Notes: generated by a model from the letters alone, not told the origin. DNA of 64,000 nt from Bdellovibrio sp. ArHS (GCF_000786105.1 NZ_JTEV01000006.1:80410-144409), one strand, 5' to 3'. Positions 21,325 to 47,578 are shown, counted from the first letter of the stretch. Translations and numbers: made by a program.

Positions 21325-22101
21325 ATGGAAAATTGGTCAGAAATTTTCAAATACGACATCAAGCAGGTCTTACAAAGAGTCCTCCAAGAAAAACAGGAAA
21401 CGCACCCGTCCTTTTCGCAGAGAGATCTTGCCGCGCAACTGGGTATGGCGCCCTCCACGCTGAATGAAATCTTAAAAGGGAAAAGAGCTTTATCGAAAAA
21501 AACACTGGGCAAAATCAAAGATCTTTTCCATGAAGATACTCATTTTCAGGAAGTCCTCAGGTCTCATGATAAAGAAAAATTCAAACTCTTCTTTGCAGAA
21601 AATCGTCAACTGACTGAGATTTCTAATAAGTGGTATTTTGAAGCTCTCTTAGAACTGATTAGCACTGATGATTTCCGCGAGGACTCTGCGTGGATGGCCG
21701 CACGTCTTGGCATCTCGGAAAAAGAAGTTCAGGCCGCCATTGATAACCTTTTAGCTATCGGAGAAATTCGGTACAACAAATTTGGCCGACTGTCCGTTGC
21801 CTTCGATAATACCTTAAACATCAGCGAAGGTGATTTAAGAAAAGCGACCTTGAAAAAAGGACGAAGTCATATTTCCAAACTAGAATCCACCGTCGAGGAA
21901 CTTTCGTTCGAAGAAAGATTTTTCAGCTCGATGGTGATTGCGATGTGTCCGAGTGACTTCGAATATCTTCGAACAAAAATGGTGGATTTCATCAAAGAAC
22001 AGCAACAATTTTTAAGTCGAGATGGCACTAAAAAAACGGAAGTTTATCAGCTTACAATGGGAATGGTGCCACTAACCCGAAAGGTGGATGGCAGTGCATA
22101 G
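21325..22101 (+). CDS. TIGR02147/DUF4423-type DNA-binding regulator
   Basis: A 258-residue regulator. Residues about 28-65 form a lambda-repressor-type helix-turn-helix (SQRDLAAQLGMAPSTLNEILKGKRALSKKTLGKI). The rest matches the TIGR02147/DUF4423 family, known mainly from Fibrobacter and Bdellovibrio: KWYFEALLELIS, WMAARLGISEKEVQAAIDNLLAIGEI (a second winged-helix-like part) and a C-terminal domain ending TEVYQLTMGMVPLT. GGAGACTAG precedes the ATG. It shares an intergenic space and a palindrome with the QNC lipoprotein gene, so self-regulation and control of the neighbouring island are inferred. A related gene is at 41748. Confidence 0.85.
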   Translation: MENWSEIFKYDIKQVLQRVLQEKQETHPSFSQRDLAAQLGMAPSTLNEILKGKRALSKKTLGKIKDLFHEDTHFQEVLRSHDKEKFKLFFAENRQLTEISNKWYFEALLELISTDDFREDSAWMAARLGISEKEVQAAIDNLLAIGEIRYNKFGRLSVAFDNTLNISEGDLRKATLKKGRSHISKLESTVEELSFEERFFSSMVIAMCPSDFEYLRTKMVDFIKEQQQFLSRDGTKKTEVYQLTMGMVPLTRKVDGSA

Positions 22102-22695: not shown

Positions 22696-25410
22696 TCAGG
22701 GCAAACCGTATTTCGCCTTCAGCAAGCTCTCGATTTCTTGGCGTTCTTCCGAGGTTAGATCGCGATTAAAGACCATGATCTCGGCGATATCCCCGAAGAA
22801 GTCTTTACCTATATTCAACCCGTGAGCGATCGCTGCGTTGGCGGTATCCACGGCGGGTGAATTGGTGACGCTTAAAACGCCATTAATATATAGCGCCTGG
22901 CTCGTACCGTTGTATATCGAAGAAATCAAAAGGGGGCTGTCCGACGAGGCCGCCGCAGAGATCGACGACGAATTCTGATAGTTCATCGTTATAAAACTTT
23001 GATCCGTGGTTCGGAAGCAAAGACTGTAAAGTTTCGTATTTTGATAGCTCGTTCCATATCCGACAATGTGCTGGGTTTTAGCGATGGAAGAATTTCCATT
23101 GGCAATCACCGCAATGATCGAGCGCGGATTATTTTGCAGTGGCGGCATCACGGCAGACCCCATCCACTCGGTCCCAGTAAAACGAACGACCGGCTGACCA
23201 TTCAGAATGTTTGTTTTCAGTGTCGGTGCCTTACTTAAAATTTGTGAAAAGTCGAACCCTTCGCCGAGCATATTTTCCCAGCGGGTCACCTTACTATCAT
23301 TCGCCAAAGAATCTAAAAGGCTGTCGGCTTTAAACCAGGCCATCGGCAGCGCGTGTGGTACGACCGAGATACTTTGAGTCGCGACACCGCCCAATGAGTC
23401 TGTCACTTGAATCGTCGCGGTTCCGGCAGAAGAAGACGCAGTGTAAACTCCCGTCCCGGCGTTGACACTGCCGCCGCCAGAGACAAGGCTGTACTGATAC
23501 GGAGGGCTGCCTCCGGCCGCTTTAAAGGAATATTGGCCTGAGGTGTTCACGACTTTACCACGATTCACACCCGGAACTGCACTCAGTTTCAAAGGACCAG
23601 AATGGCAAGTGGCCGATGCGTCTAAAGTGATCTTGTATTTGTTCGCCAGATAACATTCCAGCTGCTTTTGCTGAGTCAGGTTCAGAACATCAGAAAACGC
23701 CAAGACTTCCGCGATGTCCCCTTTAAAATACCCATCGGCAGCACGCAGACGACCGATTTGTATTTTTGTGGACGCCGCCGTAGTCAACGTCACGCCTTTT
23801 TCTTCCAAAAGCTTTCCATTCAGATAGAGACGGTCCGTCGTTCCATCATATTGCTGCACCAAAATCATCGCTTCACTAGAACCGAAAATCGAAGATGACA
23901 TCGAACCGTTACTATTGAGACTTGGATATGTGTAACTCGCGTCGCTGCTGGAATGATAGTAACTTCCCATGCCGGCGCCTCGGTTGGTATGCTCTGCCTT
24001 GTTGGCAAAAGCTAGACCGTAATAGTTTAAAAAACTTGAAGTATTGCCATAGCCGGCAATCACTTGCCGATCACCAAGAGAAATATCGCCATTCGCAATC
24101 ACGGTCACGGTCGTCCGAGCTGCGGCGCCACTTACTGGAGACGTCGCTGTTTCCAAGAATTGTGTTGAGCCATTAAAACGCACGACAGATCGGCCGTTTA
24201 AAACTCCGGTTTTAAATACAGGACGTGTGGCGACAGTCCCATTGGTCGCATGATTCCCCGTCCCTGAAAAGTCACTCCAGGTTTGAACGGCCGTTTCATC
24301 CGTCAACGACAAGGTTCCCGCATTCAACCACAATTTTAAAGTCCCCCACTGGGTCGGCGAAAAAACGGTGAGCGTGGATTCTTGGGTGCTTCCCCCAACA
24401 TCGGTCACTCGAATTTGTACTTCCCCGGAATAAGTTCCTGCGACAAACACGCCGGTTGCAGGGTCCATCGTGCCTGCGGCGGGATCCCCTATCAATGAAA
24501 ACACATAAGGTGGACTGGCGCCGGTGGCCGTGAATGTCGTCTGCTCCCCTGGCGCGAGGGTGATTTGAGCCGGGAACAAAAGCAGAGGTTCAGGAAAGTC
24601 ATTGTCTGTGATGACGACAGTATGAACAAGTTCTCCTTCCAAACTTGCCAAAGAAGAACCGACATTCTGCAAAGTGATCACAAGACTTTCAGTCCCCTCA
24701 ATGTCCACGTCATCATGGATAGTAAAAGGAAGATCCACATAAGTGGAGCCGGCCGGGATTTGCACCGAGCCCGAACTAAGATCATGATCGGTCAAAGAAG
24801 TGCTCGTACCACCCACCGAAAAGGAAATGGCTAAGGCATCAGCTAGCACACCTGACATAGAAATACGGACGGACCCCGTGCTGTAGCCCTCGCTGACGCT
24901 TTGAGAGGCGACACTAAAAGAAACTTTAGGCTTTACTTCATCTTCCAAAAGATCAAAGGGAAAAGATTTTCCGCTGCCACTTCCTTCAAAAGTTAATTGC
25001 GGTAGCGAGGATGACAGCTTAATAGAGAAAATGTGATCCCCTTTAAAGACTAAATCGTTGATCGGCTTCAAATTGAAGGTCCCTGAACTGCCATTTTTGG
25101 CGATGGTAAAGCTGCCCGACGTCTTTTGAAAAAAATCGACGGCGCTTGGTTCTTGAATTTCCCAGGATACAAGGGTCTCCACCGGTACCGGATGATTTAG
25201 TATAAGGACTATCGTGCTATCAGTATTTTCATTGATTTGGAATGGCGGAAGAGTCGCCGTGATTTTTTCGTCTTCCGGAGCTGGTTCCACAGACGGAGTA
25301 GAAGGCGCCTTCTCAACCGCCGAGATTCCCATTTCTGAAGAAATCACACAGCCAGAAAGCCCCCACAGAGCAAACGATACCAGTGCTGTACAGAATAGTG
25401 TTCGAAGCAC
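22696..25410 (-). CDS. Giant lipoprotein with Calx-beta, Ig-like and two LamG/ConA-like domains
   Basis: A 904-residue lipoprotein (lipobox LSGC, Cys about 21), probably on the outer membrane. From N to C: Calx-beta-like domains at about 50-155 and 160-275, an Ig-like unit (about 285-350, ending VTDVGGSTQESTLTV), a LamG/concanavalin-like domain (about 355-590; LKLWLNAGTLS, TWSDFSGTGNHA, VVRFNGSTQFLE), a second Ig-like unit (GGSPPYQYSLVSGGGSV), and a second LamG-like domain to the end (AWFKADSLLDS…). LamG-type folds bind glycans or proteins, so adhesion or ligand binding is likely. The start is a GTG with GGGAGA upstream. The Ig-like units resemble those of the protein at 44645. Confidence 0.82.
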   Translation of the reverse strand: MLRTLFCTALVSFALWGLSGCVISSEMGISAVEKAPSTPSVEPAPEDEKITATLPPFQINENTDSTIVLILNHPVPVETLVSWEIQEPSAVDFFQKTSGSFTIAKNGSSGTFNLKPINDLVFKGDHIFSIKLSSSLPQLTFEGSGSGKSFPFDLLEDEVKPKVSFSVASQSVSEGYSTGSVRISMSGVLADALAISFSVGGTSTSLTDHDLSSGSVQIPAGSTYVDLPFTIHDDVDIEGTESLVITLQNVGSSLASLEGELVHTVVITDNDFPEPLLLFPAQITLAPGEQTTFTATGASPPYVFSLIGDPAAGTMDPATGVFVAGTYSGEVQIRVTDVGGSTQESTLTVFSPTQWGTLKLWLNAGTLSLTDETAVQTWSDFSGTGNHATNGTVATRPVFKTGVLNGRSVVRFNGSTQFLETATSPVSGAAARTTVTVIANGDISLGDRQVIAGYGNTSSFLNYYGLAFANKAEHTNRGAGMGSYYHSSSDASYTYPSLNSNGSMSSSIFGSSEAMILVQQYDGTTDRLYLNGKLLEEKGVTLTTAASTKIQIGRLRAADGYFKGDIAEVLAFSDVLNLTQQKQLECYLANKYKITLDASATCHSGPLKLSAVPGVNRGKVVNTSGQYSFKAAGGSPPYQYSLVSGGGSVNAGTGVYTASSSAGTATIQVTDSLGGVATQSISVVPHALPMAWFKADSLLDSLANDSKVTRWENMLGEGFDFSQILSKAPTLKTNILNGQPVVRFTGTEWMGSAVMPPLQNNPRSIIAVIANGNSSIAKTQHIVGYGTSYQNTKLYSLCFRTTDQSFITMNYQNSSSISAAASSDSPLLISSIYNGTSQALYINGVLSVTNSPAVDTANAAIAHGLNIGKDFFGDIAEIMVFNRDLTSEERQEIESLLKAKYGLP

Positions 25411-25662: not shown

Positions 25663-26157
25663 ATGAATAATTATTTTTTTGTATCACTCTTGATGTGGAT
25701 TCCGTTGTTTTCCCCTGCCATGACGACCGAAACCGTTTGCACGCCACAGGGTCCGACCACGATTGAGGCGGGCCCATCCACAGGAAGTATTTCCCAAATA
25801 CATTCCCTGAAGATTTCATTCTCAGAGGCCTTGCCGTCCCCCCAAATTTTTATGAGCGTGGAAGGTCTTGATAGTCTGGGCAAAAAGGTCAGCGGTATCG
25901 AAGCCTATGAGTTGAAGGATATGAAGTCGGGAACTCTTTTAGAGCTTCAAGGAAGCCCCTCCAATATTTTTGAATTTGACGCGATCTTTTTGGAACTAGG
26001 AGCTCCCGAAGTAGAAACCGCAGGCCCCATTCCTACTGGAACTTTTGCCCTGAAAGCCTCGATGGCTTTTATAGACTCGAATGTCTTTTATTTAAATCCG
26101 TATCCGATGGCGCTCTCTCGAGTCAATTTCGACTGCCAGCAGACGGTCCGTTACTAA
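25663..26157 (+). CDS. Small secreted protein of unknown function
   Basis: 164 residues: signal peptide about 1-19 (LLMWIPLFSPAM), then a beta-rich domain with two cysteines (TVCTPQG near the start and NFDCQQTVRY at the end), probably one disulfide closing the domain. The ribosome site is weak (AAGGAAAT). It is divergent from the giant lipoprotein gene across palindrome 2 and overlaps the pilin-like gene by four bases in convergent orientation. No family recognised. Confidence 0.65.
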   Translation: MNNYFFVSLLMWIPLFSPAMTTETVCTPQGPTTIEAGPSTGSISQIHSLKISFSEALPSPQIFMSVEGLDSLGKKVSGIEAYELKDMKSGTLLELQGSPSNIFEFDAIFLELGAPEVETAGPIPTGTFALKASMAFIDSNVFYLNPYPMALSRVNFDCQQTVRY

Positions 26158-27029
26158 TTGCACTCACAGCCATTTTGACCGGCCTCAAGACAGAAATTCT
26201 TTTTCACGAAGTAACAGCTATAGGTCTTTTCTGCGCCCGCACTGGCTTCGCCTAGGCGGGTTCTTTTGAAGCCTTTGCGGCAACAAGGAACCGCCTCCCC
26301 GTGGCAATAAGCGGGGCTGCGCGCAGCCACATTCGTTTTAATGCTGACGTCTTCATCGGGGTACTGACACTTCTGCTGCGCTGGCATCCAGACAACCGTG
26401 CCACTTAAATCACCAGGAAAAAAACATCGCCGTTGGGAGTTCATGCCGCCCCAAAGATTGAGCATGCTTCCTCCCTGCATCACACAGGTGTAGTCAACGG
26501 AACTTTCTCCGCCGCAGCTTTTTACTTTATTCGTGCCAGGCTCTACTTCTAAAATAAGTGGAATCACGATGGGTTTGAAAGAGCTGGGCCCCAACATCGT
26601 CGCACTGGCAGTCACTTCGGCGTGAATCAAAAGCTTTGTTAAAATATAGTTTTCTAACATTGCCTGGCGACCTTCGAATGAAATTTTTTTGATCGTGTAT
26701 CCATCTTCACTAAAGCCCGTTTGCAGCCACGTTTTGAGACCGTCCGCCGGGTCCTTAATAATCACGCCAGTGACATTGGGAGCCGCGTCTGTCGGAACGA
26801 CTTGTCCCACCAAGGCCCGCGTACAATTTTCGGAAGAAGAAAACTGCAGATTGATAAGCGTATCTAAACGTATCAGCGAAGACTTTATGGAAAGGGCCTT
26901 TTGGCCTTTGAAACCGTCACCTAATGCCGTGGCAATTCCCAAAGCCAACATCGTCGTTAAACCCAAGGCAATTAGAACTTGTATGAGGCTGCTCCCGCGA
27001 CGCCCTCTATCTTTCGATCTCACATTCAT
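26154..27029 (-). CDS. Prepilin-like protein with Gln at position +5 and Cys-rich C-terminus
   Basis: A 291-residue type IV pilin-like protein. The leader MNVRSKDRGRRG ends in Gly12 and the mature protein starts SSLIQVLIALG, followed by a hydrophobic helix to about residue 34. Glu at +5, which is nearly invariant in major pilins, is Gln here. Non-Glu5 minor pseudopilins (such as GspK of type II secretion) sit at the filament tip, so a tip role is inferred. The last ~125 residues hold about 11 cysteines, including a CC pair. It is the second gene of an operon behind the QNC lipoprotein gene (57 bp apart). Confidence 0.82.
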   Translation of the reverse strand: MNVRSKDRGRRGSSLIQVLIALGLTTMLALGIATALGDGFKGQKALSIKSSLIRLDTLINLQFSSSENCTRALVGQVVPTDAAPNVTGVIIKDPADGLKTWLQTGFSEDGYTIKKISFEGRQAMLENYILTKLLIHAEVTASATMLGPSSFKPIVIPLILEVEPGTNKVKSCGGESSVDYTCVMQGGSMLNLWGGMNSQRRCFFPGDLSGTVVWMPAQQKCQYPDEDVSIKTNVAARSPAYCHGEAVPCCRKGFKRTRLGEASAGAEKTYSCYFVKKNFCLEAGQNGCECN

Positions 27030-27086
27030 GATGGCTCTTTCCAGATGCGAAGAAAAGTGCGGGATGACTCCCGCACTTCCATAAGA

Positions 27087-28358
27087 TTATTGTACACACA
27101 CAGTTGAATATTTAATGGTTCCATCGGGAAGCATCGCATCCGACATAACCAACTTTTTAGAGCCGTTACGACATTGCGGAATATTTTTTGAATCGCAATA
27201 CCCGTAATTTTCGACATCGAAGTATCCCGCTTGCGCGACCAGTGGCTCTGACGCTGTTCTGCAGGTGTTCACTCCTGCCGCTGATCCTTCGCTGTAAATG
27301 CTCGCGACAATGCGAGTTCCAGCCGAAGAATTTTTCACGCAGGCTGTTTGATACTTGATACTGTTCCCGTTGTTAGATTGAGTTGCACTCAAAATAACCT
27401 TCTTGGCATCTCCAGCACACTGAGGAATACCTTTCAGGTCACAATAAGCCACACCCTCTTCATCAAAATATCCTTGCGCTAAGGCCAAGGGATCATTCGG
27501 ATAGATGCACGTGTTCTTTTCACTTGGATATTCCGTCTCGCTGTACATCGTAGACACGATTTGCGACTTAGTGCTTCCATTAACTACACACGCCGTGTGA
27601 TATTTCACAGTTCGGGTGTTTGGAATCTGCACTGCCGACATAATGACTTTGTGAGAACCCTTTGCACACATGGGGATTTGGTCTCTATCGCAGTAAGAAT
27701 ACCCTCCTAAATCAAAATATCCCGTGGCTTTCAATTCCGCATTTTGAGCTGTCGCACATACATTCACTCCGTCAGTTGAGGCACTATAGGCCGTTGAAAC
27801 GATTTGAAATCCCTGCTCTGCACTGTCTTTCACACAGACTGTGTGATAGACAATTTTTTTAGAAGGAGCACCGTTAGAAACAGTGTTCATTTCCGTCTGA
27901 GTCCACACGACTTTTTGGGAACCATTTCGACATTGAGGAATATTGTTCTGATCACAATAAGAATAGTTACCCAGATCCCAATAACCCACCTTCGCCGCAG
28001 CGGGATTGGCGGCTGTCGCACACTGATTTAGACCTGTCTTCAGGTCGTTCTCACTATAGATTGTCGCGACGATAGCGCTGTTGAGTAGTGTTGAAGGATT
28101 GGCAGGATTAGCAACGGGCTCATTGCCCTGATTTTGCGAAGGGGGCGAACCACTCCCACCCTGATTCATATCCCCACGATCGGATCCTTCCCCATAAAAT
28201 ATGGGAATGCCAGATGCCTGACCATTGGAAGACAGAGATGCTTCATTCATGGCTCCAAACTGTTGTGGAGCACAGTTTTGAAAAGCCAGTATAATCACGA
28301 CGCCGCTTCCTAATGCGGCAAAGCTCCACTGCACTTTTCTTTTTGAGATAAAGTTCAT
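27087..28358 (-). CDS. QNC-type lipoprotein with four tandem Cys4 repeats
   Basis: A 423-residue lipoprotein. The lipobox is ILAFQNC with Cys29 followed by A-P-Q-Q-F. A Gly/Ser/Asn/Pro-rich spacer (30-93) leads to four repeats of 73-84 residues at about 95-178, 186-258, 267-341 and 350-423. Each repeat has the pattern IV.[ST].YSE…C…GY[FW]D…YCD…IP.C..[GD]..KV…KY.T.CV, with four conserved Cys. The ribosome site is AGGGGGAAGT. It is the first gene of the operon with the pilin-like protein and diverges from the Ser/Thr kinase across palindrome 3. I do not recognise the repeat family. Confidence 0.82.
   Translation of the reverse strand: MNFISKRKVQWSFAALGSGVVIILAFQNCAPQQFGAMNEASLSSNGQASGIPIFYGEGSDRGDMNQGGSGSPPSQNQGNEPVANPANPSTLLNSAIVATIYSENDLKTGLNQCATAANPAAAKVGYWDLGNYSYCDQNNIPQCRNGSQKVVWTQTEMNTVSNGAPSKKIVYHTVCVKDSAEQGFQIVSTAYSASTDGVNVCATAQNAELKATGYFDLGGYSYCDRDQIPMCAKGSHKVIMSAVQIPNTRTVKYHTACVVNGSTKSQIVSTMYSETEYPSEKNTCIYPNDPLALAQGYFDEEGVAYCDLKGIPQCAGDAKKVILSATQSNNGNSIKYQTACVKNSSAGTRIVASIYSEGSAAGVNTCRTASEPLVAQAGYFDVENYGYCDSKNIPQCRNGSKKLVMSDAMLPDGTIKYSTVCVQ
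27090..28076 (-). repeat. Four tandem repeats of about 220-250 bp (protein level)
   Basis: These encode the four Cys4 units of the lipoprotein above. They match well as protein but are divergent as DNA, so the duplication is old and the cysteine pattern has been kept by selection. Confidence 0.75.
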
Positions 28359-28436
28359 ACTTCCCCCTATAGACAGGTCTCATCGTCTGCACTAGACGTT
28401 TTCTAGAGGTTGTATGGCTACCCAAGTATTACAAAC

Positions 28437-28458
28437 TGTGTTTTTTTATAAGTACACA
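28437..28458. promoter_or_regulatory. Operator-like palindrome 3
   Basis: TGTGT-N12-ACACA, 22 bp, extended by AAC before and CTT after. It lies 90 bp before the QNC lipoprotein start (28358) and about 47 bp before the kinase start (28495). Confidence 0.65.
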
Positions 28459-28494
28459 CTTCAATTCGACCGACAGTTAATAAAAGGAACCAAA

Positions 28495-29892
28495 ATGGAG
28501 CAAATCGGCCGTTTTCAAATTCTAAGATCGTTGGCTTCTGGTGGCATGGCGGATATTTTTCTTGCACGAAAAATTGGCGATCCTTCTTCACAACTCTTCG
28601 TCATTAAAAGAATTGGCGCACAAGCCGACGACAAATGGTTTTATTCAAAACTTTTTTTAAGAGAAGCGAAACTATCTATTTCCTTGAATCATCCAAACCT
28701 GGTGCAAACCCTGGAAATGGGCACTCATGAAGGAAATTTGTATCTTGTTCAAGAATATATCGAAGGCGTGAATCTTAAAGAAATTATGAGCGTTGTCACC
28801 CTGCTGGGACGCTTTTTTCCCACAAGTATGGTTTATTATATCATGGCGAAAGTCTCTCTGGGGCTTTCTTACATGCATGGGCATATTTCTTTGCAAAGCC
28901 ATCAGCAGATTTGTCTTCATCGCGATCTGAGTCCTCACAACATCATGCTCAGTCGCGGTGGTGAGGTCAAAATTATCGACTTCGGTGTGTCTAAGTCTTC
29001 AGATAGTGAGTCTTTGACACAAGCGGGAACCATCAAAGGTAAATACACCTACATGAGTCCCGAGCAATTGTGCGGGGAAAACGTCACGCCCGCCTCTGAT
29101 ATCTTTGCCCTGGGGATTATTTATTACGAGCTTTTGACAGGAAAACGTTTTTTCTCAACCTCGACTGAGTTAGAAACCATCCAAGCTCTTTCACAGTGGT
29201 CTCTTGAAGAGGTACAAAAACGAATTCTCGATGTGGGCACTGAAGATGCTCGGATCTTGCAATCGATGTTGGATCCCGATCCACAACGCCGAGTTTCTGC
29301 CTTGCAACTGGCGGCGGTTTTTGAAACGTCTCTGAAAAGTCTGGATGCGCATTATGGGGTCGATCAGTTTGCAGCAACGCTTCGCGAGTATATTGGTGAA
29401 AGCGCCTCTGGACTCAACCTCAGCAAAGGAAATCAGTCCACAGAAAGTCTGACAGCACAATCCGAGATCAGTGAAAAAAAGCCATCCATGCAACAGCACA
29501 TCACTCTTTACGAAGTCTTGACGGAAAAACCAAGGACTTCGTCATTGAATCGATCACTGTTGACTCTGTCTTTCGCAGTTCTTTTCGGAGGATATCTTTT
29601 CTGGAAAGTCGACGACGATACTTCAAAAAAACGAGTCCCCGCTTCGCTGGCGCCAGTAAAAAAAGAGCCCCGTTCTTTGCTTTTGAAATTTGACCAGTTT
29701 AAAAACAACAAGTCGCTGGAAGTGTCACTTAATGGCGCTCGCGTCTTAAAGAAGGATATTCTAGCGGGAATTAAGGTTTTTGATGGGGACCAGGTTGCGA
29801 TCCGATTTTACTCTTTAAACGACCGAAGATGGAAAAGCTCAGTAGCGACGATTAACACGTCAAGTTCCCCGATCTTTTCAGAAGCTGAGTAG
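28495..29892 (+). CDS. Hanks-type Ser/Thr protein kinase, membrane-anchored
   Basis: Start at the ATG at 28495 (AAAGGAACCAAA before it); the frame runs open upstream through the palindrome. 465 residues: kinase domain at about 5-275 with LASGGMADIFLA, Lys38, catalytic Asp144 in HRDLSPHNIM, Asp162 of DFG, GTIKGKYTYMSPEQ and DIFALGIIYYELLTG. A linker leads to one membrane helix (about 350-368) and an extracytoplasmic tail of about 95 residues. The layout (cytoplasmic kinase, single helix, outside domain) suits sensing across the inner membrane. It diverges from the lipoprotein-pilin operon and shares the palindrome with it, so it may be part of the same system. Substrates unknown. Confidence 0.92.
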   Translation: MEQIGRFQILRSLASGGMADIFLARKIGDPSSQLFVIKRIGAQADDKWFYSKLFLREAKLSISLNHPNLVQTLEMGTHEGNLYLVQEYIEGVNLKEIMSVVTLLGRFFPTSMVYYIMAKVSLGLSYMHGHISLQSHQQICLHRDLSPHNIMLSRGGEVKIIDFGVSKSSDSESLTQAGTIKGKYTYMSPEQLCGENVTPASDIFALGIIYYELLTGKRFFSTSTELETIQALSQWSLEEVQKRILDVGTEDARILQSMLDPDPQRRVSALQLAAVFETSLKSLDAHYGVDQFAATLREYIGESASGLNLSKGNQSTESLTAQSEISEKKPSMQQHITLYEVLTEKPRTSSLNRSLLTLSFAVLFGGYLFWKVDDDTSKKRVPASLAPVKKEPRSLLLKFDQFKNNKSLEVSLNGARVLKKDILAGIKVFDGDQVAIRFYSLNDRRWKSSVATINTSSSPIFSEAE

Positions 29893-30844: not shown

Positions 30845-33800
30845 TTAATATCCTGGGCCTGACCATCCCCAGAAGTGATACTGACTGGCCCCTTTGACCG
30901 CCACAAATCCTGAGTCGGTGCTATAGATTTTTTGAACTCCGGAAGCCAGTCCCGGCGAGTTCCCTTGCGTGTAATCTTCTACCTGGCCCCAGGTGACGAC
31001 TGAGCCGTCGGATTTTAAAGCTGCGAATCCCCTCTTGCTAGTCGCAATGTCGATCACTCCCGAAGTCAAGGAACCACCACGCGCCCCATAGGTCACCGAA
31101 GTATGATCTCCTCCTGTCGCCGGTTTTCCCCATGTGACGACTGAGCCATCTTCCTTTAACGCAGCAAAGGCCCCGTCACCATTCGGGAAAAGCTTCACCA
31201 CTCCAGAGGTCAGCGTTCCTCCCTTATTCGCGTAGCCTGATTTCAAATGATCACCCCCAGCACTGTCACTTCCCCAAGTGACAACGGATCCGTCGGACTT
31301 CAAAGCCGCAAAGGCGCCGTTACCAACATTATCAGAACCATCCAATTCCGAGTTTTCGTAAATATGGACAACCCCCGAAGTTAAAACGCCACCCTTTGCC
31401 CCAAAGAAAGTGGGATGAGTGTGATTTCCACCCAATGAGTTTATTCCCCAAGTCACCACAGAGCCATCCGCCTTCAAGGCGGCAAAGGCACCTGCTTTGT
31501 TGGCAAATATTTTTATGACTCCACTATCTAGGGTGCCGCCGTTGGCGCCGTAGCCGTGAACCACATCAGTGTGATCACCGCCATAACTAGCGGTTCCCCA
31601 GGTCACAACAGAGCCATCGGATTTCAATGCCGCAAACGCGGCATAGGTGGCAACGATCTGCTTCACTCCACCTGTGAGTGCTCCTCCCTTGGTACCATGG
31701 GTCGCATTTGTGTGATCTCCTCCAGACCACAGATCTCCCCAAGTGACAACCGAGCCGTCGGACTTCAGTGCAGCAAAGCCGCCCAATTTATTAGAAAAAA
31801 TTTTAACGACGCCTGAGGACAGGCTTCCACCCTTTGCCCCGTAGGTTGCATGGGTATGATTTCCCCCGCGAGTTGGGGCCCCCCAGGTGACCACGGAGCC
31901 ATCTGTTTTGATGGCTGCAAATGCTTCTTCACCACTGTAGATGGCTTTGACCCCACTTGTGACGGTTCCACCTTTCACGCCAAAAGTTGCATGCAGATGA
32001 TCCCCCCCAGTATCTATTAATCCCCAAGTCAGAACAGAACCGCCAAGCTGTAGCGCAGCGAAAGAAGTCGCATTGTTAAATATTTTGCTTGCACTTAAAG
32101 CTCCTCCTGACGGAGCCACTTCACATCTATATACTGAGTCATCTTGGCCTTGTGAACCGTCGGCCTGCCAACGAATAATGGCGTTCGTTTCGGTTATGGC
32201 AGCCCCACACTTTTTCGCACCGTAAACTCGTATCACTTGAGTACTTGGATTTTTAAGTGCAGGGTCTAAGTAGGCAAATGAACTTCCCGATCCGGGGTCC
32301 TCCCAAATATCTACGTAACCGTCAGGACGAAGAAACGCATGCCCCCAAATTCCATCACCCATTTTTGCGATACTTCGCGAGTCATAGGTCCACGTCACCT
32401 CGGCCGCATTTCCTGCAGCATCCTGAAGCTGAACTTTCAAGGGTAAATATCCCGAGTAAATGAATTGTGCTTCCCAACGTCCTCCCTGGCATTGTACTGG
32501 GGCTACGGGTTGAACATAACTTCCGACAAAGGTGATTGTCCTGCCCTCTTCGGAACATCCGCCTTCGATAACCAACCGACTATTGAGATCATCGTCTTGC
32601 TCGCCCGAAGATTTAGAAAAAATACTTAACTTGGGCGGCGTGGAATCCTCGGTGAATGCTCCCGCATACACACAGTTGGACTTATTTCCCGCGGCATCTA
32701 CAATTTGCACATACAAGTGGGTTGTCGTGTTGGCGGGAACAATTGTTCCTTTAGAGAAATCTCCAGAAGAGTCAACAACGCCTGAAGTGAGCTCTGCCGT
32801 ACAAATAGCATTCGAATATACTTTAAAATTAGCCAATGCTTCCGCATTTCCGCTGACCACCGGGTTTCCTTTGGCTGGCGAAGTCGGAGTTACCGACATA
32901 TTCTGTGGATCGCCCGGGGGAACATTGTCGAAGACAACACTTAAGATGTTCGAGTCTGAATTGAAATTCCCATAGTCGTCTTGAGCTTTCCCGGACGATA
33001 ACTGCAACTGCACGTTACCGACGGCCGAGGGAACGACATTGAAAGTAATTTCTTTTTTATCTAACGAGGGCGTCCACATTTCAATAGTGGCATTCGTCAC
33101 TTCAAGATCTTCTTTCACAATATCGGTTGTACGCGACATTTTAAGAGAGACCGGAAAAGCCCCAGCAACGTGGGTTCCCGTTACCTCGGTTTCTAAAGTC
33201 GCAGATACTGATCCCGCCAGATAGTCCACCGTTAGCCAGTTGGAGGCGGTATTGTAGTTACTAAATTCGTCTTGTGCCTGATCTTCGGCGTAGTAGACTT
33301 TCACAGGGATACCACTGCTGATAGGGTTGATTGTGAATCTGTATTCATCGTCAGATCCACTCAAAAAAAGTCGCGTCCCATTGGCGACGTGAACATCTGC
33401 GCTGACAAAGCCAGTCACTTTCTTGGAAAACTTGATGGTGACGTCGAACATTCCATTCGTTTTGTCGCCGGCGTCCGTCGTAATTGTCACCGAGGGCTTT
33501 TCAGAATCATACTCGCGGAACAATTGATTCCCAGAGACGTTGAAATTTCCGGCTTCGTCCAATACTTTACCGGCATCCACTTTGATACTCACCGATCCTT
33601 TTAAGACAGGCGTGATACTTACATTGTATTTGCCTGCGCCTAAGTCCACAAGCCCGCCCACAACACCATTTTCAACAGAAAAATCCGATGCGAGAAGCTC
33701 TTGAATAGGCTCCCCGAAATCGACCGTCACAGCAATGGGGGATGCATTTGTCTTCGCTGAAACCAAGGAGGTGATCGTCGGCGCAGGCGCTGTTCGATCC

Positions 33801-34459
33801 AAAAGAACAGACTTGTTCACACAGTTGGAAGTATTGCCAGCTCGATCTCGAATTAACACCGAAAGATTTTTATTTCCATCAGTAACATCCGAAAGCGCGA
33901 ATGAACTAAGACTCTGAAAAGACTTCCACGGACCGGTCCCACCACAGCCTGCGCCCTCAGAAAAAAGAACCTCATGAATATCGGTCGCGCTGGAAATGAT
34001 TTGGACCGTCGGTTCTGTGATATTAATTTTCGCTTTGCCGCCGGCAACAACAACATTGTCAATGACCGGAGCTTGTGTGTCCTTGGTCACTGGAATAACC
34101 ACGCGATCACCCGTTTTTGGGTGTTCAAGGTCGGTAATCACCTCAATGGTTCCGTCAGGTGTCATTGGGTCAATGGAGACTTCAACCTGCCACTTTCCAT
34201 CTTTACACTGCACGGTTTTTTTGGGCGGAGGATTCAAAATTTCAAAGGATTCCAGTCCCTCTTTGCAGGAACCATCGACCGTGACCGTATTTGGATTTTG
34301 AATATTGATGACGGGCTCTGAAGTCCAGCTAATCGGCAACTTATTAAGACTCTCAGAACTTACAAGAGTCGCATCCAATGAACATCCTACCAACGGCAAT
34401 GCGGCCACCGTTTTTAATAAGATACCCATCGATTTTAATAAATTGAATACCCCGCGCAA
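30845..34459 (-). CDS. Giant lipoprotein with Ig-like domains and RCC1-like repeats
   Basis: A 1204-residue lipoprotein, lipobox LPLVGC (Cys about 26). The TTG at 34459 has AGGGAG upstream and is preferred to the ATG at 34429, which has none. Residues about 40-700 hold Ig-like modules of the bacterial adhesin type (segments such as TVDFGEPIQELLASDFSVENG and KFSKKVTGFVSADVHVANG). Residues about 790-1190 hold eight RCC1-like repeats of about 45-58 residues with the core FAALKSDGSVVTWG and GGDH…GAKGGSLTSGV, plus a degenerate last unit. RCC1-like repeats form propellers that bind proteins. It diverges from the QNC lipoprotein at 34746 across palindrome 5. Surface adhesin is the likely role. Confidence 0.82.
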   Translation of the reverse strand: MRGVFNLLKSMGILLKTVAALPLVGCSLDATLVSSESLNKLPISWTSEPVINIQNPNTVTVDGSCKEGLESFEILNPPPKKTVQCKDGKWQVEVSIDPMTPDGTIEVITDLEHPKTGDRVVIPVTKDTQAPVIDNVVVAGGKAKINITEPTVQIISSATDIHEVLFSEGAGCGGTGPWKSFQSLSSFALSDVTDGNKNLSVLIRDRAGNTSNCVNKSVLLDRTAPAPTITSLVSAKTNASPIAVTVDFGEPIQELLASDFSVENGVVGGLVDLGAGKYNVSITPVLKGSVSIKVDAGKVLDEAGNFNVSGNQLFREYDSEKPSVTITTDAGDKTNGMFDVTIKFSKKVTGFVSADVHVANGTRLFLSGSDDEYRFTINPISSGIPVKVYYAEDQAQDEFSNYNTASNWLTVDYLAGSVSATLETEVTGTHVAGAFPVSLKMSRTTDIVKEDLEVTNATIEMWTPSLDKKEITFNVVPSAVGNVQLQLSSGKAQDDYGNFNSDSNILSVVFDNVPPGDPQNMSVTPTSPAKGNPVVSGNAEALANFKVYSNAICTAELTSGVVDSSGDFSKGTIVPANTTTHLYVQIVDAAGNKSNCVYAGAFTEDSTPPKLSIFSKSSGEQDDDLNSRLVIEGGCSEEGRTITFVGSYVQPVAPVQCQGGRWEAQFIYSGYLPLKVQLQDAAGNAAEVTWTYDSRSIAKMGDGIWGHAFLRPDGYVDIWEDPGSGSSFAYLDPALKNPSTQVIRVYGAKKCGAAITETNAIIRWQADGSQGQDDSVYRCEVAPSGGALSASKIFNNATSFAALQLGGSVLTWGLIDTGGDHLHATFGVKGGTVTSGVKAIYSGEEAFAAIKTDGSVVTWGAPTRGGNHTHATYGAKGGSLSSGVVKIFSNKLGGFAALKSDGSVVTWGDLWSGGDHTNATHGTKGGALTGGVKQIVATYAAFAALKSDGSVVTWGTASYGGDHTDVVHGYGANGGTLDSGVIKIFANKAGAFAALKADGSVVTWGINSLGGNHTHPTFFGAKGGVLTSGVVHIYENSELDGSDNVGNGAFAALKSDGSVVTWGSDSAGGDHLKSGYANKGGTLTSGVVKLFPNGDGAFAALKEDGSVVTWGKPATGGDHTSVTYGARGGSLTSGVIDIATSKRGFAALKSDGSVVTWGQVEDYTQGNSPGLASGVQKIYSTDSGFVAVKGASQYHFWGWSGPGY
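30900..32085 (-). repeat. Tandem RCC1-like repeats (about 150 bp each)
   Basis: Eight full copies and one degenerate copy of a ~150-bp unit encode the RCC1-like part of the lipoprotein. Adjacent copies share stretches such as AAAGCCGCAAAGGCGCC and GTGACAACGGAGCC variants on the plus strand, so slippage or recombination that changes the copy number is possible. Confidence 0.75.
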
Positions 34460-37710: not shown

Positions 37711-38847
37711 TTACGAACACTGACACGTAAATACGGTCCCACGATCATTCGTGGCTTTGGCTCCCTTATTCGCCGTACTACAAGAGGCCGTGGGTGAGGA
37801 CTCTGGACCAGCTACAATTCCTGACCAAGAACATCGCGTTCCTGTCGATCCTCCGTAATTTTTTGACCCGATCGCACAATCACCATAGCCAGGGCGTTTG
37901 ACCACGATATTCGCGGACTGAAACACTTTACCTGTCGCCGGATCACGCACAACGGTGCGATAAGTTCCCGGGACGATCACGGGGTTTCCGCTCAAGTTAA
38001 AAACGGCTGTCGGATGTGTGAATGTTCGTGTCGCTGAATTGTAAGACCACTCAGGAAACAGATATCTAAACTTAGACGCGGAATCACACTTGAAGCTCTC
38101 TCCATAGCGAGGGTGTCCAGGTGGCATATCCAACGTATACTCAGAACAAACCTGAACATCCATAGGCGCGTTTTGGACCGTTTGGTTGATGATCGCCGCT
38201 CCGGCCAAAGAGCAGTCCACACGAGCGGCTTCGGTTGAAGCTCCATTCACAACAATACCAGATTGACAATGCCCGAATCCGGTTCGTTTCACCAGAATTT
38301 CTCCTGAACGAAAAATTTCTCCAGTATGATCGCGAACCACAAGCCAATAGCTGCCGGGAACAATGGTATCATCATCGTTCACCTTATAAGGTGTTCGTGT
38401 GGACCACTGCCTTAATGAGGCGTCATAACTCCACTGATCCAAATTTGGTGCCGCAAACTTTTCAGGTCGATCACAAAAACTTTGTTCATTATATCGAGGA
38501 TGCCCTGCCGGCATATCCAAGATATATTCCGCACACACTGAGATCGACGAAGGAGCATTTTTAATCACCTGATGGATTTCGGAGCCCGCTTTAGAGCAGT
38601 CCTCTTTAGCTACGGCCGTCGAAGACGCTACCACTTGAATTTTATTTGTTAAGCTAGGTTCAGAATAATACCCTCCGGAGGAGTATCCTGGCACCGAAAC
38701 TCCCCCTCCACGAGCAAAATTCGACGATGATGCGGATAAGGCAGCGCCTTCCGTATCAAAACCTTGCGAAGAACAGTTTTGAAAAGCCACGACTATTCCT
38801 GAGACCGCGACGACAGCCACGGTGCCCTTTACAAGACGACTCGACAT
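37711..38847 (-). CDS. QNC-type lipoprotein with two Cys4 repeats of another type
   Basis: 378 residues; lipobox VVAFQNC (Cys about 25) then S-S-Q-G-F. After a Ser/Gly spacer come two repeats of about 125 residues (about 78-200 and 208-330): DCS.AG…NAP…VC.EY.LDMP.GHPRY…CD…WSY…IVPG.Y..VVRD..G..F.S..I.VKR.G.G.C, four Cys each. A short tail has four more Cys. Ribosome site AGGGGGATGTA. It lies directly downstream of the pilin-like gene at 38970, and palindrome 6 lies in the 122-bp gap between them. Function unknown. Confidence 0.8.
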   Translation of the reverse strand: MSSRLVKGTVAVVAVSGIVVAFQNCSSQGFDTEGAALSASSSNFARGGGVSVPGYSSGGYYSEPSLTNKIQVVASSTAVAKEDCSKAGSEIHQVIKNAPSSISVCAEYILDMPAGHPRYNEQSFCDRPEKFAAPNLDQWSYDASLRQWSTRTPYKVNDDDTIVPGSYWLVVRDHTGEIFRSGEILVKRTGFGHCQSGIVVNGASTEAARVDCSLAGAAIINQTVQNAPMDVQVCSEYTLDMPPGHPRYGESFKCDSASKFRYLFPEWSYNSATRTFTHPTAVFNLSGNPVIVPGTYRTVVRDPATGKVFQSANIVVKRPGYGDCAIGSKNYGGSTGTRCSWSGIVAGPESSPTASCSTANKGAKATNDRGTVFTCQCS

Positions 38848-38917
38848 TACATCCCCCTACTTACTTGCATTTTATCGGCTCGACCTTCGCCCGCCAGAAG
38901 AGACCGGCAGATGAATC

Positions 38918-38940
38918 CGTGTATTTCGGAACAAAACACA
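38918..38940. promoter_or_regulatory. Operator-like palindrome 6 (imperfect)
   Basis: GTGT-N13-ACAC with T-rich and A-rich inner arms; spacing is one base longer than in most copies. It lies about 80 bp upstream of the QNC lipoprotein start, which suggests that this gene has its own promoter. Confidence 0.5.
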
Positions 38941-38969
38941 ATTTCACTCTTTTTCTTGATTTCACTGTC

Positions 38970-39938
38970 TCAATAGCGAACATACCATCGCGTCGGAACA
39001 GCAATACCTGGGCAGCCATTGGTGTTGGGCTGATTGACAGGACTACAATATATACTTCCATCTGTTCCAAATCGTGCCGAAGCAGCGCCAATAAACGGAT
39101 TCATTTCACCGGCAAATCGAACCGGGCTTAGACAGTAAATAGTTTTGGTAATACCTGATCGATACGCCTGCTGACACAATTCATTTCTATCCGAGGCCGT
39201 CACTCCAGGTCCGGTCACTTTTACGTCAGCACCTTCGCCAATAGCCTTTTCAAATTCTTCAAACTTTCCAAAAACAGTTCCGCCGGATTCCGAATTTTCA
39301 TAGATCAGATGCCAGCGTCCGTCTTGAAAACAAGCGGCCTTTGATGGCCATCCTTTCGCGGCAAAATCCACACAGGTCGGCGAGTAGACACCCTGAGCTG
39401 TGCCTTGGGTCGGTTCACTTAAACGGCTGCAACTGACAATCTTTCCTGATTCATCCGTCGCCAAATGCAAAGGGACTGTGCGATTCATATTAATGCTCAG
39501 ACCCGACTTTCCTTTTACACCAAGATCAATGGAACCTAAATAGCGATTGGCCCCGAGCGCGCTATCAACTTTGAAAGCAATACTTTCTACGCTCAGAATA
39601 TTCTGATAAGGTTTGCCAACTTTGATGATCTCTTTAGACCCCAGAGCCCCACTGGCACTGACATCTTTGAAAACGACGTTGTTTTCGATGACCGCCGGCA
39701 GTGAGCCCGGCACCTGTTTCCCGGCAAAGTGTAAATTGCAGTAAGTCGGATCGCCAAGCATTCCGGAAATCTGAACAGCCAAATCCTCAGCGGCATAAAA
39801 GCTTCGCGAATGTGACATGCTGTCAATTCCGCTGGAGACGGCCGTCGCGATGCCGGCGACCAACATAGATGAAATACCGACAGCCAGCATAGTTTGCACT
39901 AGTGTGAAGCCTTTGTTATTTATCTTCGCCATCGCCAT
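38970..39938 (-). CDS. Prepilin-like protein with Gln at position +5
   Basis: Start at the ATG at 39938 (AAGGAG six bases upstream). 322 residues. The leader ends at Gly10 and the mature part starts FTLVQTMLAVG, with a hydrophobic helix to about residue 35. As in the protein at 26154, Glu5 is replaced by Gln. The globular part is large for a pilin and has about eight Cys, mostly in the last 120 residues. Large non-Glu5 pseudopilins are tip proteins in type II secretion and type IV pili, so a tip role is inferred. It precedes the QNC lipoprotein gene on the same strand. Confidence 0.82.
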   Translation of the reverse strand: MAMAKINNKGFTLVQTMLAVGISSMLVAGIATAVSSGIDSMSHSRSFYAAEDLAVQISGMLGDPTYCNLHFAGKQVPGSLPAVIENNVVFKDVSASGALGSKEIIKVGKPYQNILSVESIAFKVDSALGANRYLGSIDLGVKGKSGLSINMNRTVPLHLATDESGKIVSCSRLSEPTQGTAQGVYSPTCVDFAAKGWPSKAACFQDGRWHLIYENSESGGTVFGKFEEFEKAIGEGADVKVTGPGVTASDRNELCQQAYRSGITKTIYCLSPVRFAGEMNPFIGAASARFGTDGSIYCSPVNQPNTNGCPGIAVPTRWYVRY

Positions 39939-40015
39939 CTTTATCTCCTTGAGCAACATCTAAAGAATCTACTCGGCACAAAAATGAGGCCTCTAGATTG
40001 CCTATTCTTCATTTT

Positions 40016-41585: not shown

Positions 41586-41747
41586 TCACAAACTCCTCGT
41601 GAAAAAGAGTCTATAGGCTGACGAAATAAAAAAACAATATGAATAATCCAAGGTCCGGAATGCAGCATTCAAGCTTGGAAAAATGACTCAAACAATGTCT
41701 ACTGAAAATAGTTGATCTTTAAAAACTATATTGATGCCGGAATTTTT

Positions 41748-42560
41748 ATGAAAAATGTTAATAGCTGTGTAGAGAATCCCAACGACAACTTTGTAGAGAA
41801 ACTAAAGGAAATTTTCTCCCGTCGCTCAGAAAAGAACTCTAAATACTCTCTTCGCGCATTCGCGCGAGATCTTCAAATAGAACCCAGTCTTCTTTCCAAA
41901 ATCATGCGCGGTCTGTACCCTCTCACGGAAGCAATGCTGCAAAGAATCGCGCGACGCTTGGGCTTGTCCGAAGAAGAGATCGCGAACCTCGTTCAAGAAT
42001 TTCGCTTACAAAATAAAGCTCTTGAAGAAGGGAAGGCTGAAAAAGCCAACACTTTTTTTCCAATAGCTATCGACCATCTTAAGTATATTTCCGAAAGCTA
42101 TCACATTGATTTATTGGCGCTGATCGAAACGGTCGATTTTAAAAATGATATTGGTTGGATTGCAAATAGACTGGATCTATCAGAAGAAAAAGTGAAAGAT
42201 GCATTCGACAGACTTGTTCGCCTCGGATATATCGTCCTGAACGAACAAAAGGTCACTTTGGGTAAACCACAATATTCCACGTTGGGGTTCCCTTCCACAA
42301 GTGACTCATTAAAACAGATGCAAGCGACTTCTTTAGAACAGGCTATAAAGGCATTATTCAAAGTTCCTCTAAACGAACGCAGTCAGTCCACGCTCACTTT
42401 TGCGGTGGACATGAAATTGATTCCAAAAATCATCGACGAAATAAATAGCTTCCGCCGAAAAATTAACAAATTAGCTTCCGTCGAGGGAAAACGCCCCACT
42501 GAAGTCTATCACCTTTCTTTATCGCTTTATCCGGTAACCACTAGAAATAATCGTCGATAA
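41748..42560 (+). CDS. TIGR02147/DUF4423-type DNA-binding regulator, second copy
   Basis: 270 residues from the ATG at 41748 (weak CCGGAA ribosome site; a TTG at 41712 is the alternative). N-terminal helix-turn-helix (YSLRAFARDLQIEPSLLSKIMRG…TEAMLQRIARRLGL) and the family core (DLLALIETVDFKNDIGWIANRLDLSEEKVKDAFDRLVRLGYI) align with the regulator at 21325, and both end with a TEVYxLSLxLYPVT-type segment. The two regulators bracket the lipoprotein-pilin island. Target sites unknown; the shared palindromes are candidates. Confidence 0.83.
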   Translation: MKNVNSCVENPNDNFVEKLKEIFSRRSEKNSKYSLRAFARDLQIEPSLLSKIMRGLYPLTEAMLQRIARRLGLSEEEIANLVQEFRLQNKALEEGKAEKANTFFPIAIDHLKYISESYHIDLLALIETVDFKNDIGWIANRLDLSEEKVKDAFDRLVRLGYIVLNEQKVTLGKPQYSTLGFPSTSDSLKQMQATSLEQAIKALFKVPLNERSQSTLTFAVDMKLIPKIIDEINSFRRKINKLASVEGKRPTEVYHLSLSLYPVTTRNNRR

Positions 42561-47371: not shown

Positions 47372-47578
47372 ATGTCCTCCGAGCAAATAATATGAATTTG
47401 TTTAACAAACGGCACAGATCCGTGGAGTCTGAAGACAGCACCTCGAGGAAAATTCTGAAATCGAATGCATTGCGATTGGAGGGAAGATTCTGTTTCCGCT
47501 GTCATGATCGGCTAAAGCCCGGAAACACAGTCTCAGAACGAAAAACTTGAGTCTGAAAACCACGTGATTTTAGCAATC

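Follow-up and report, generated by a model that had tools for sequence, protein, structure and literature searches.

A four-cysteine domain common to a modular pilin-like protein and a neighbouring lipoprotein in Bdellovibrio sp. ArHS: a candidate two-gene surface module

Introduction

How predatory bacteria recognise and hold their prey is an open question, and predation needs pili. A locus in Bdellovibrio sp. ArHS, where a gene for a lipoprotein with cysteine-containing repeats is followed by a gene for a prepilin-like protein, raises this question in a concrete form: do the two proteins belong together and, if so, what could they do at the cell surface? The locus lies in a window of 64,000 nucleotides (the whole stretch of DNA that was analysed), which is C6:80410-144409 of a 3.54-Mb draft genome in 47 contigs. 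In a preliminary description the pair was read as a tip complex, in which a lipoprotein of a 'QNC' type accompanies a pilin marked as a tip subunit by a glutamine at position +5. We found that the two proteins are connected by a previously unnamed four-cysteine domain, Cys4, which is common to the pilin and the neighbouring lipoprotein.

Results

Layout of module A

The features of the locus (module A), in positions of the window, are:

26154-27029, minus strand: pilin A, a prepilin-like protein of 291 aa (sequence, AlphaFold)
26214-26381, minus strand: one diverged copy of Cys4 in the tail of pilin A (C221, C242, P248, C250, G253, C272)
26511-26993, minus strand: conserved pilin module of pilin A (aa 13-173), with Cys69 and Cys172, both invariant in the family alignment
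26979-26981, minus strand: Gln codon (CAA) of pilin A, aa 17, mature position +5, which is Glu in most pilins
26994-27029, minus strand: basic leader MNVRSKDRGRRG of pilin A, with a predicted prepilin-peptidase cut after Gly12
27054-27079, minus strand: intergenic hairpin with a stem of 11 pairs and the loop GTCA, then TCTTC; terminator- or attenuator-like
27087-28358, minus strand: lipoprotein A, 423 aa, with signal peptide, lipobox AFQN^C29, tether and four tandem Cys4 domains
27090-27314, minus strand: Cys4 repeat 4 of lipoprotein A (aa 349-423, HMM)
27324-27566, minus strand: Cys4 repeat 3 of lipoprotein A (aa 265-345, HMM)
27573-27809, minus strand: Cys4 repeat 2 of lipoprotein A (aa 184-262, HMM), the repeat that was modelled alone
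27819-28079, minus strand: Cys4 repeat 1 of lipoprotein A (aa 94-180, HMM)
28272-28283, minus strand: FQNC lipobox (TTTCAAAACTGT) of lipoprotein A, with Ala at +2
28414-29892, plus strand: Ser/Thr protein kinase gene, divergent from lipoprotein A, link unproven

Both genes of the pair lie on the minus strand, which had not been given before, with the lipoprotein A gene first and the pilin A gene exactly 57 bp downstream (gap 27030-27086), as had been described. The mature N-terminus S-S-L-I-Q and the richness in cysteine were likewise recovered (RRG/SSLIQ, Gln at +5, 12 Cys). Two features had escaped the preliminary description, namely the Cys4 copy at the C-terminus of the pilin and the intergenic hairpin. 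The anatomy as listed, read from the sequence and from predicted structures, is very probably correct.

The neighbours of pilin A are the lipoprotein, a small secreted protein and the kinase; there is one pilin gene at the locus, and we found neither a conserved minor pilin operon of the H-I-J-K type nor a three-gene KilLMN (TadEFG-like) cluster. A kinase or kinase-like gene adjoins a pilin-containing pair at two loci, that of the window (28414-29892) and one in genome G021, where a kinase-like gene directly follows a pair of pilins with Gln and Glu at +5 (L130:5057-6472).

Lipoprotein A

Lipoprotein A starts with a signal peptide that ends in a lipobox cysteine (VVIILAFQN^C29, within MNFISKRKVQWSFAALGSGVVIILAFQN^C29APQQF), as is characteristic of bacterial lipoproteins, and a low-complexity tether of about 65 aa separates the lipobox from the repeats. 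Under the usual Lol rule, Asp at +2 is the signal for retention in the inner membrane; since +2 is Ala, lipoprotein A lacks that signal. The four repeats noted previously were all placed, at 106-120 bits each, by an HMM that was built from those repeats together with repeats from genome G030. They measure about 80 aa each and have four invariant Cys and one invariant Pro. A single repeat modelled alone (pLDDT 96.3) is predicted to consist of four longer strands together with short ones and a short helix.

The notion of a special class of 'QNC lipoproteins' did not hold, because FQNC is a frequent lipobox in these Bdellovibrio-type genomes and the FQNC motifs showed no positional proximity to pilins in three complete relatives. 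The idea that FQNC lipoproteins go with pilins was ruled out by these positions and by a neighbour count.

Pilin A

Pilin A starts as a type IV prepilin does, with a short basic leader, Gly at -1 and a hydrophobic segment (MNVRSKDRGRRG/SSLIQVLIALGLTTMLALG; the cleavage region reads RRG/SSLIQVLIALG), and departs from most pilins in having Gln17 where they have Glu at +5. The protein gave no match to the Pfam N_methyl model at E 0.1. A prepilin peptidase gene is present in the genome (PF01478, E 8.7e-22). In the AlphaFold model, where pLDDT for residues 13-75 and 110-175 is mostly around 90 or higher, these residues form a long N-terminal helix and a sheet of four strands (helices 13-64, which is 52 residues long, and 66-73; strands 111-125, 128-139, 154-162 and 168-174), and this predicted helix with its beta-sheet head is as expected for a pilin. 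The C-terminal tail was not folded in the same model (pLDDT about 40).

Database comparisons returned little for either protein. Pfam, NCBIfam and PHROGs scans of lipoprotein A and pilin A gave no significant match, no S74 or fibre domain was found in pilin A, its sequence gave chance matches only against the PDB, and its fold gave no Foldseek match to the PDB at E 0.001 and a best VIA-align Z of 3.7, which is in the range of common arrangements.

A domain common to both proteins

An early HMM, made from the closely related lipoprotein repeats without the divergent ones of G030, detected pilin A weakly (E 0.11 among 704 ORFs). After the diverged repeats of the further G030 protein had been added, pilin A was found at E 2.6e-5 and outscored every ORF without Cys4. 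The pilin tail keeps all four cysteines of the domain, its invariant Pro and its near-invariant Gly, and none of 4985 shuffles of the tail with the cysteines fixed equalled the real Cys4 score. A loose motif of the Cys4 spacing occurred in 7 of 947 ORFs, being the six Cys4 proteins known from the search and pilin A. When lipoprotein repeats were compared with a mixed set of pilin tails by profile-profile comparison there was no match, probably because such tails are of several kinds.

The domain is rare. A Cys4 profile from which pilin A had been left out was searched in six frames against 143 Bdellovibrionia genomes and gave matches in two genomes only, this one and G030. In this genome the matches are the four repeats of lipoprotein A and the pilin A tail (E 9e-4 per genome) and no others. 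As the sole two Cys4 genes of the genome are neighbours, chance is unlikely, and their neighbourhood may be a trace of how the domain moved. A wider pattern scan of GTDB r220, with one genome per species, gave three Cys4 loci: the lipoprotein of G030; outside the Bdellovibrionia, a secreted protein with two repeats in a MAG labelled Patescibacteria (L153:4023-5141); and, also outside, a lipoprotein with four tandem repeats in a Sandaracinaceae MAG (L154:5502-8705). No pilin was found beside the Cys4 protein at any of these three loci, and no member of the pilin family was detected in G030. Cys4 was not found in viral contigs either.

Because Cys4 is present in lipoproteins and in a secreted protein without a pilin, it appears, from these sequence comparisons, to be a free-standing module that was grafted onto a pilin here. 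It had no Pfam match; against the PDB the profile gave no match by sequence and the model none by Foldseek at E 0.001, and the best VIA-align Z (4.2) was in the range of common arrangements, with no convincing match.

The modular pilin family and position +5

At E <= 1e-6, a family model built from an alignment of pilin modules (alignment A5) gave relatives in 105 of the 143 Bdellovibrionia genomes, as a rule several in each; pilin A itself scored E 3e-45 against this model, being one of the 15 sequences from which it was built. The relatives range from about 120 to over 700 aa, differ in their tails and mostly stand as single genes, of which a genome has many. Conserved are the first ~160 mature residues, with two invariant Cys, whereas the tails are exchangeable: Peptidase_S74, the chaperone domain of phage tailspikes, ends 5 of 48 members, others carry TIG, Hint or glycine-rich domains, and most tails are Cys-rich, unnamed and of several types. 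Pilin A combines such a pilin module with a C-terminal domain that is also found outside pili, the hallmark of a modular pilin. Alignment and predicted fold thus place it in a large family of putative modular minor pilins of the Bdellovibrionia, and the family alignment and tail survey support the reading of the C-terminal domain as the variable part.

Position +5 is Glu in 34, Gln in 9 and another residue in 7 of 50 family modules. On a family tree built leaving out this position we counted at least 11 changes between Glu and non-Glu and at least seven between Glu and Gln; since many deep branches are weakly supported and several Gln5 members were among the seeds of the family model, these counts indicate recurrence, not exact numbers. 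Among the closest relatives of pilin B, a second Gln5 pilin of the window, are some with Glu5 (L211, related along its full length at 36% over 323 aa; L129, at 44% across the module). Such recurrent switching makes Gln5 unreliable as a mark of tip-type pilins, so that this part of the earlier proposal fell; the idea of a separate Gln5 pilin class was also ruled out by the tree. Pilin A does share the lack of Glu5 with tip-capping subunits, yet its Gln5 is a recurrent state and not specific to a clade. In known tip complexes the capping subunit lacks Glu5 (PMC10191384), so by analogy a tip position of pilin A is allowed, and Gln5 alone does not place it there.

Several further observations were made in the family. 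In 14 of 48 members the pilin module is succeeded by a Cys-x(2-4)-Gly-Gly/Asn-x(n)-Cys motif, against 5 occurrences in 550 random stretches (examples in L047, L048, L121 and L207). Tandem modular pilins, with Glu5 and then Gln5, end in Peptidase_S74 at L031:8083-10052 (G000 C16:16082-18051) and also at L036 and L186; directly 3' of the L031 tandem lies a 1060-aa secreted protein (L031:10199-13381), of which a C-terminal stretch looks Hint-like by eye (CLSADTKITMADGTQKAI). At L134:1362-5610 (G000 C16:81361-85609) a 931-aa Gln5 pilin and two Glu5 pilins form a three-gene set that resembles the large-pilin tip sets of other predators.

A second pair and its recurrence

The window holds a second pilin-lipoprotein pair (module B, 37711-39959), so that two such pairs lie within 14 kb:

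37711-38847, minus strand: lipoprotein of module B, 378 aa, lipobox AFQN^C, two repeats of another Cys-containing domain
38970-39959, minus strand: pilin of module B (pilin B), 329 aa, G/FTLVQ (Gln at +5), C-terminal domain different from that of pilin A

Here the pilin gene comes first and the lipoprotein gene second. The preliminary description had suggested a search for the same pair in other genomes, and the outcome differed between the pairs. No second example of pair A was found in the genomes searched, which for the six-frame Cys4 search were the 143 Bdellovibrionia genomes, and the idea that pair A is conserved was rejected. Pair B recurs once, in a genome of another genus (G062) and in the same order, pilin and then lipoprotein, with 32% identity for the lipoprotein (E 7e-31) and 44% for the pilin module (E 2e-47), the G062 pilin having Glu5. 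Besides the pair, the genes common to the G062 locus and the window are DUF4423-type regulators only; in G062 the DUF4423-related ORFs lie directly 3' of the pair (L129:8398-9726). Most relatives of the module B lipoprotein stand without a pilin neighbour. Overall, pilin-lipoprotein adjacency was seen for 7 of 32 pilins, with pilin A itself not included, against 43 of 359 background ORFs (12%), which is not significant (Fisher p 0.16). The type of tail found in pilin B (window 38970-39959) is conserved across genomes while position +5 varies (Ser, Pro or Glu in L187, L188 and L211).

Expression and surroundings

The hairpin between the genes of pair A (GAAGTGCGGGA-GTCA-TCCCGCACTTT, then TCTTC) folds at an MFE of -23.3 kcal/mol in a stretch of 76 nt (z -2.55; 6 of 200 shuffles fold as well). 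It was not called in a consensus scan for terminators, and the consensus promoter and terminator scan around the pairs gave little above shuffled sequence. The hairpin may lower transcription into the pilin A gene, which would suit a low-copy subunit, or may uncouple the expression of the two genes; that the genes are made together despite this terminator-like element is possible.

The surrounding stretch, window 20127-47386, is rich in lipoprotein genes and includes LamG/Calx-beta domains (22696-25410), Ig and RCC1 repeats (30845-34459) and a glycine-rich ALK/LTK-type domain (44645-47386). HTH-DUF4423 regulators flank it (window 21325-22101 and 41712-42560).

Discussion

A proposed role for the pair

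The recurrence of the rare Cys4 domain of the lipoprotein in the adjacent pilin argues for a functional link between the two genes; of the earlier proposal, this link is what stands, and Gln5 as a tip mark is what does not. The shared domain points to one binding module presented both on a pilus subunit and at the cell surface, and lipoprotein A and pilin A in our view probably act together. Whether pair A is a two-gene surface module, in which a modular minor pilin with an adhesin-type domain is combined with a lipoprotein array of the same domain, we judge to be evenly balanced.

In the mechanism that we propose, pilin A would be cut by the prepilin peptidase and would enter a type IV filament in low copy, at the tip or along the filament, with Cys4 exposed; Gln5 would be tolerated in such a low-copy subunit. 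Lipoprotein A would reach the outer membrane and display a multivalent Cys4 array. Both proteins would bind ligands of one class, which would most plausibly sit on prey or some other surface, and a retracting pilus could therefore pass the ligand to the surface array. This adhesive mechanism, drawn by analogy, is plausible but falls just short of an even chance; its most specific form, in which a ligand caught by the filament is then held by the multivalent array of the cell by way of a new small fold, is speculative and rather unlikely. Against the mechanism count the divergence of the pilin Cys4 copy (E 0.11 with the first model), the tail that AlphaFold leaves unfolded, the Cys4 lipoproteins that elsewhere have no pilin neighbour, the lack of a detected pilin family member in G030, the hairpin that may uncouple the two genes and the non-significant adjacency of pilins and lipoproteins overall.

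The same adjacency of two genes with one rare domain would also fit a lipoprotein that is the direct partner or receptor of the pilin, docking or capping it at the outer membrane through Cys4-Cys4 association, and self-association often arises through homotypic repeats. However, Cys4 arrays occur without a pilin neighbour in G030, in the Sandaracinaceae MAG and in a third MAG, so Cys4 needs no pilin partner, and we consider docking improbable. A similar doubt, slightly less strong, attaches to the view that the domain is common to both genes only through local duplication or recombination, and that they are neighbours in a surface island with no joint action. The 20-47 kb stretch full of lipoprotein genes, the hairpin that separates the two genes, the non-significant adjacency of pilins and lipoproteins in general and the distance between FQNC motifs and pilins in the three relatives are all in line with this view, but it has to accommodate two pilin-lipoprotein pairs within 14 kb and the recurrence of pair B, in the same order, in another genus where beyond the pair only DUF4423-type regulators are common.

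Pilin A could also be a type II secretion pseudopilin or an assembly subunit of another filament and not a subunit of an adhesive pilus. Its class III leader and lack of Glu5 resemble the tip-capping subunits among T2SS and T4P minor pilins (PMC10191384). A canonical pseudopilin-like operon of four consecutive pilins is, however, present elsewhere in the genome (C21:19360-20936), and the family of pilin A has many members in a genome, mostly single genes with differing tails, which makes a pseudopilin role very unlikely.

Returning to the proposed surface module, a pilin family with one base and exchangeable ends, present in most Bdellovibrionia genomes, amounts to a natural store of recognition modules, and one unnamed fold common to a pilin and the adjacent lipoprotein gives a concrete, testable pair. 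Cys4 lends itself well to structural and ligand studies, since it is small, confidently predicted and without a Pfam or PDB relative in our searches.

Comparison with known systems

Fibres and lipid-anchored adhesins of Bdellovibrio offer partial parallels. The MAT fibres are trimeric beta-fibres, many of them with a terminal S74 chaperone domain (PMC10769870); like the modular pilins they combine one conserved N-terminal part with varied tips, and some of the pilins also end in S74. Module A contains neither a fibre domain nor S74, which in this family is found in paralogues only, including some of the same genome, and it was excluded as a MAT fibre on that ground. Pilins are not mentioned in the MAT-fibre paper, so a link between pilins and S74 is absent from it (PMC10769870). 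The lipobox MIDAS adhesin Bd0875 is displayed on the surface of Bdellovibrio while it invades, at the junction of predator and prey (PMC11003981). Lipoprotein A resembles it in its lipid anchor and, putatively, in the adhesive role that was shown for Bd0875, and differs in carrying Cys4 repeats, of which Bd0875, with its MIDAS/vWA domain, has none.

With minor pilins of the GspK/PilX type, which cap the tip, pilin A shares the lack of Glu at +5 and a large C-terminal domain; in contrast to them it lies outside an operon of the H-I-J-K type, and position 5 varies freely among its close relatives. The 'Tip' minor pilins of the Myxococcus Kil/Tad system serve contact-dependent killing (PMC12075869). 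They and the pilins described here are large minor pilins of predators whose C-terminal domains vary and which form several paralogous sets in a genome, and the predicted disulfides of the Kil tips are a likeness to our Cys-rich pilins (PMC12075869). Kil tips come as three-gene KilLMN sets, homologues of TadE/F/G, whereas module A consists of a single pilin gene and a lipoprotein gene; as it lacks the three-gene set, module A was excluded as a Kil tip proper.

Modular pilins with grafted adhesive domains have a precedent (PMC10191384) in the modular (bimodular) minor pilins PilB and PilC of Streptococcus sanguinis (PMC8179133, PMC9934059; reviewed in PMC10191384). As in pilin A, a pilin module carries a grafted C-terminal domain that is also known outside pili, and PilB and PilC are exposed, low-copy subunits, as we propose for pilin A. 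The differences are that the putative graft of pilin A is the unnamed Cys4 and that the gene next to it codes for a lipoprotein in which Cys4 occurs four times. By analogy, the modular pilins of S. sanguinis and the Kil tips of Myxococcus are the closest working analogues of the predicted module A.
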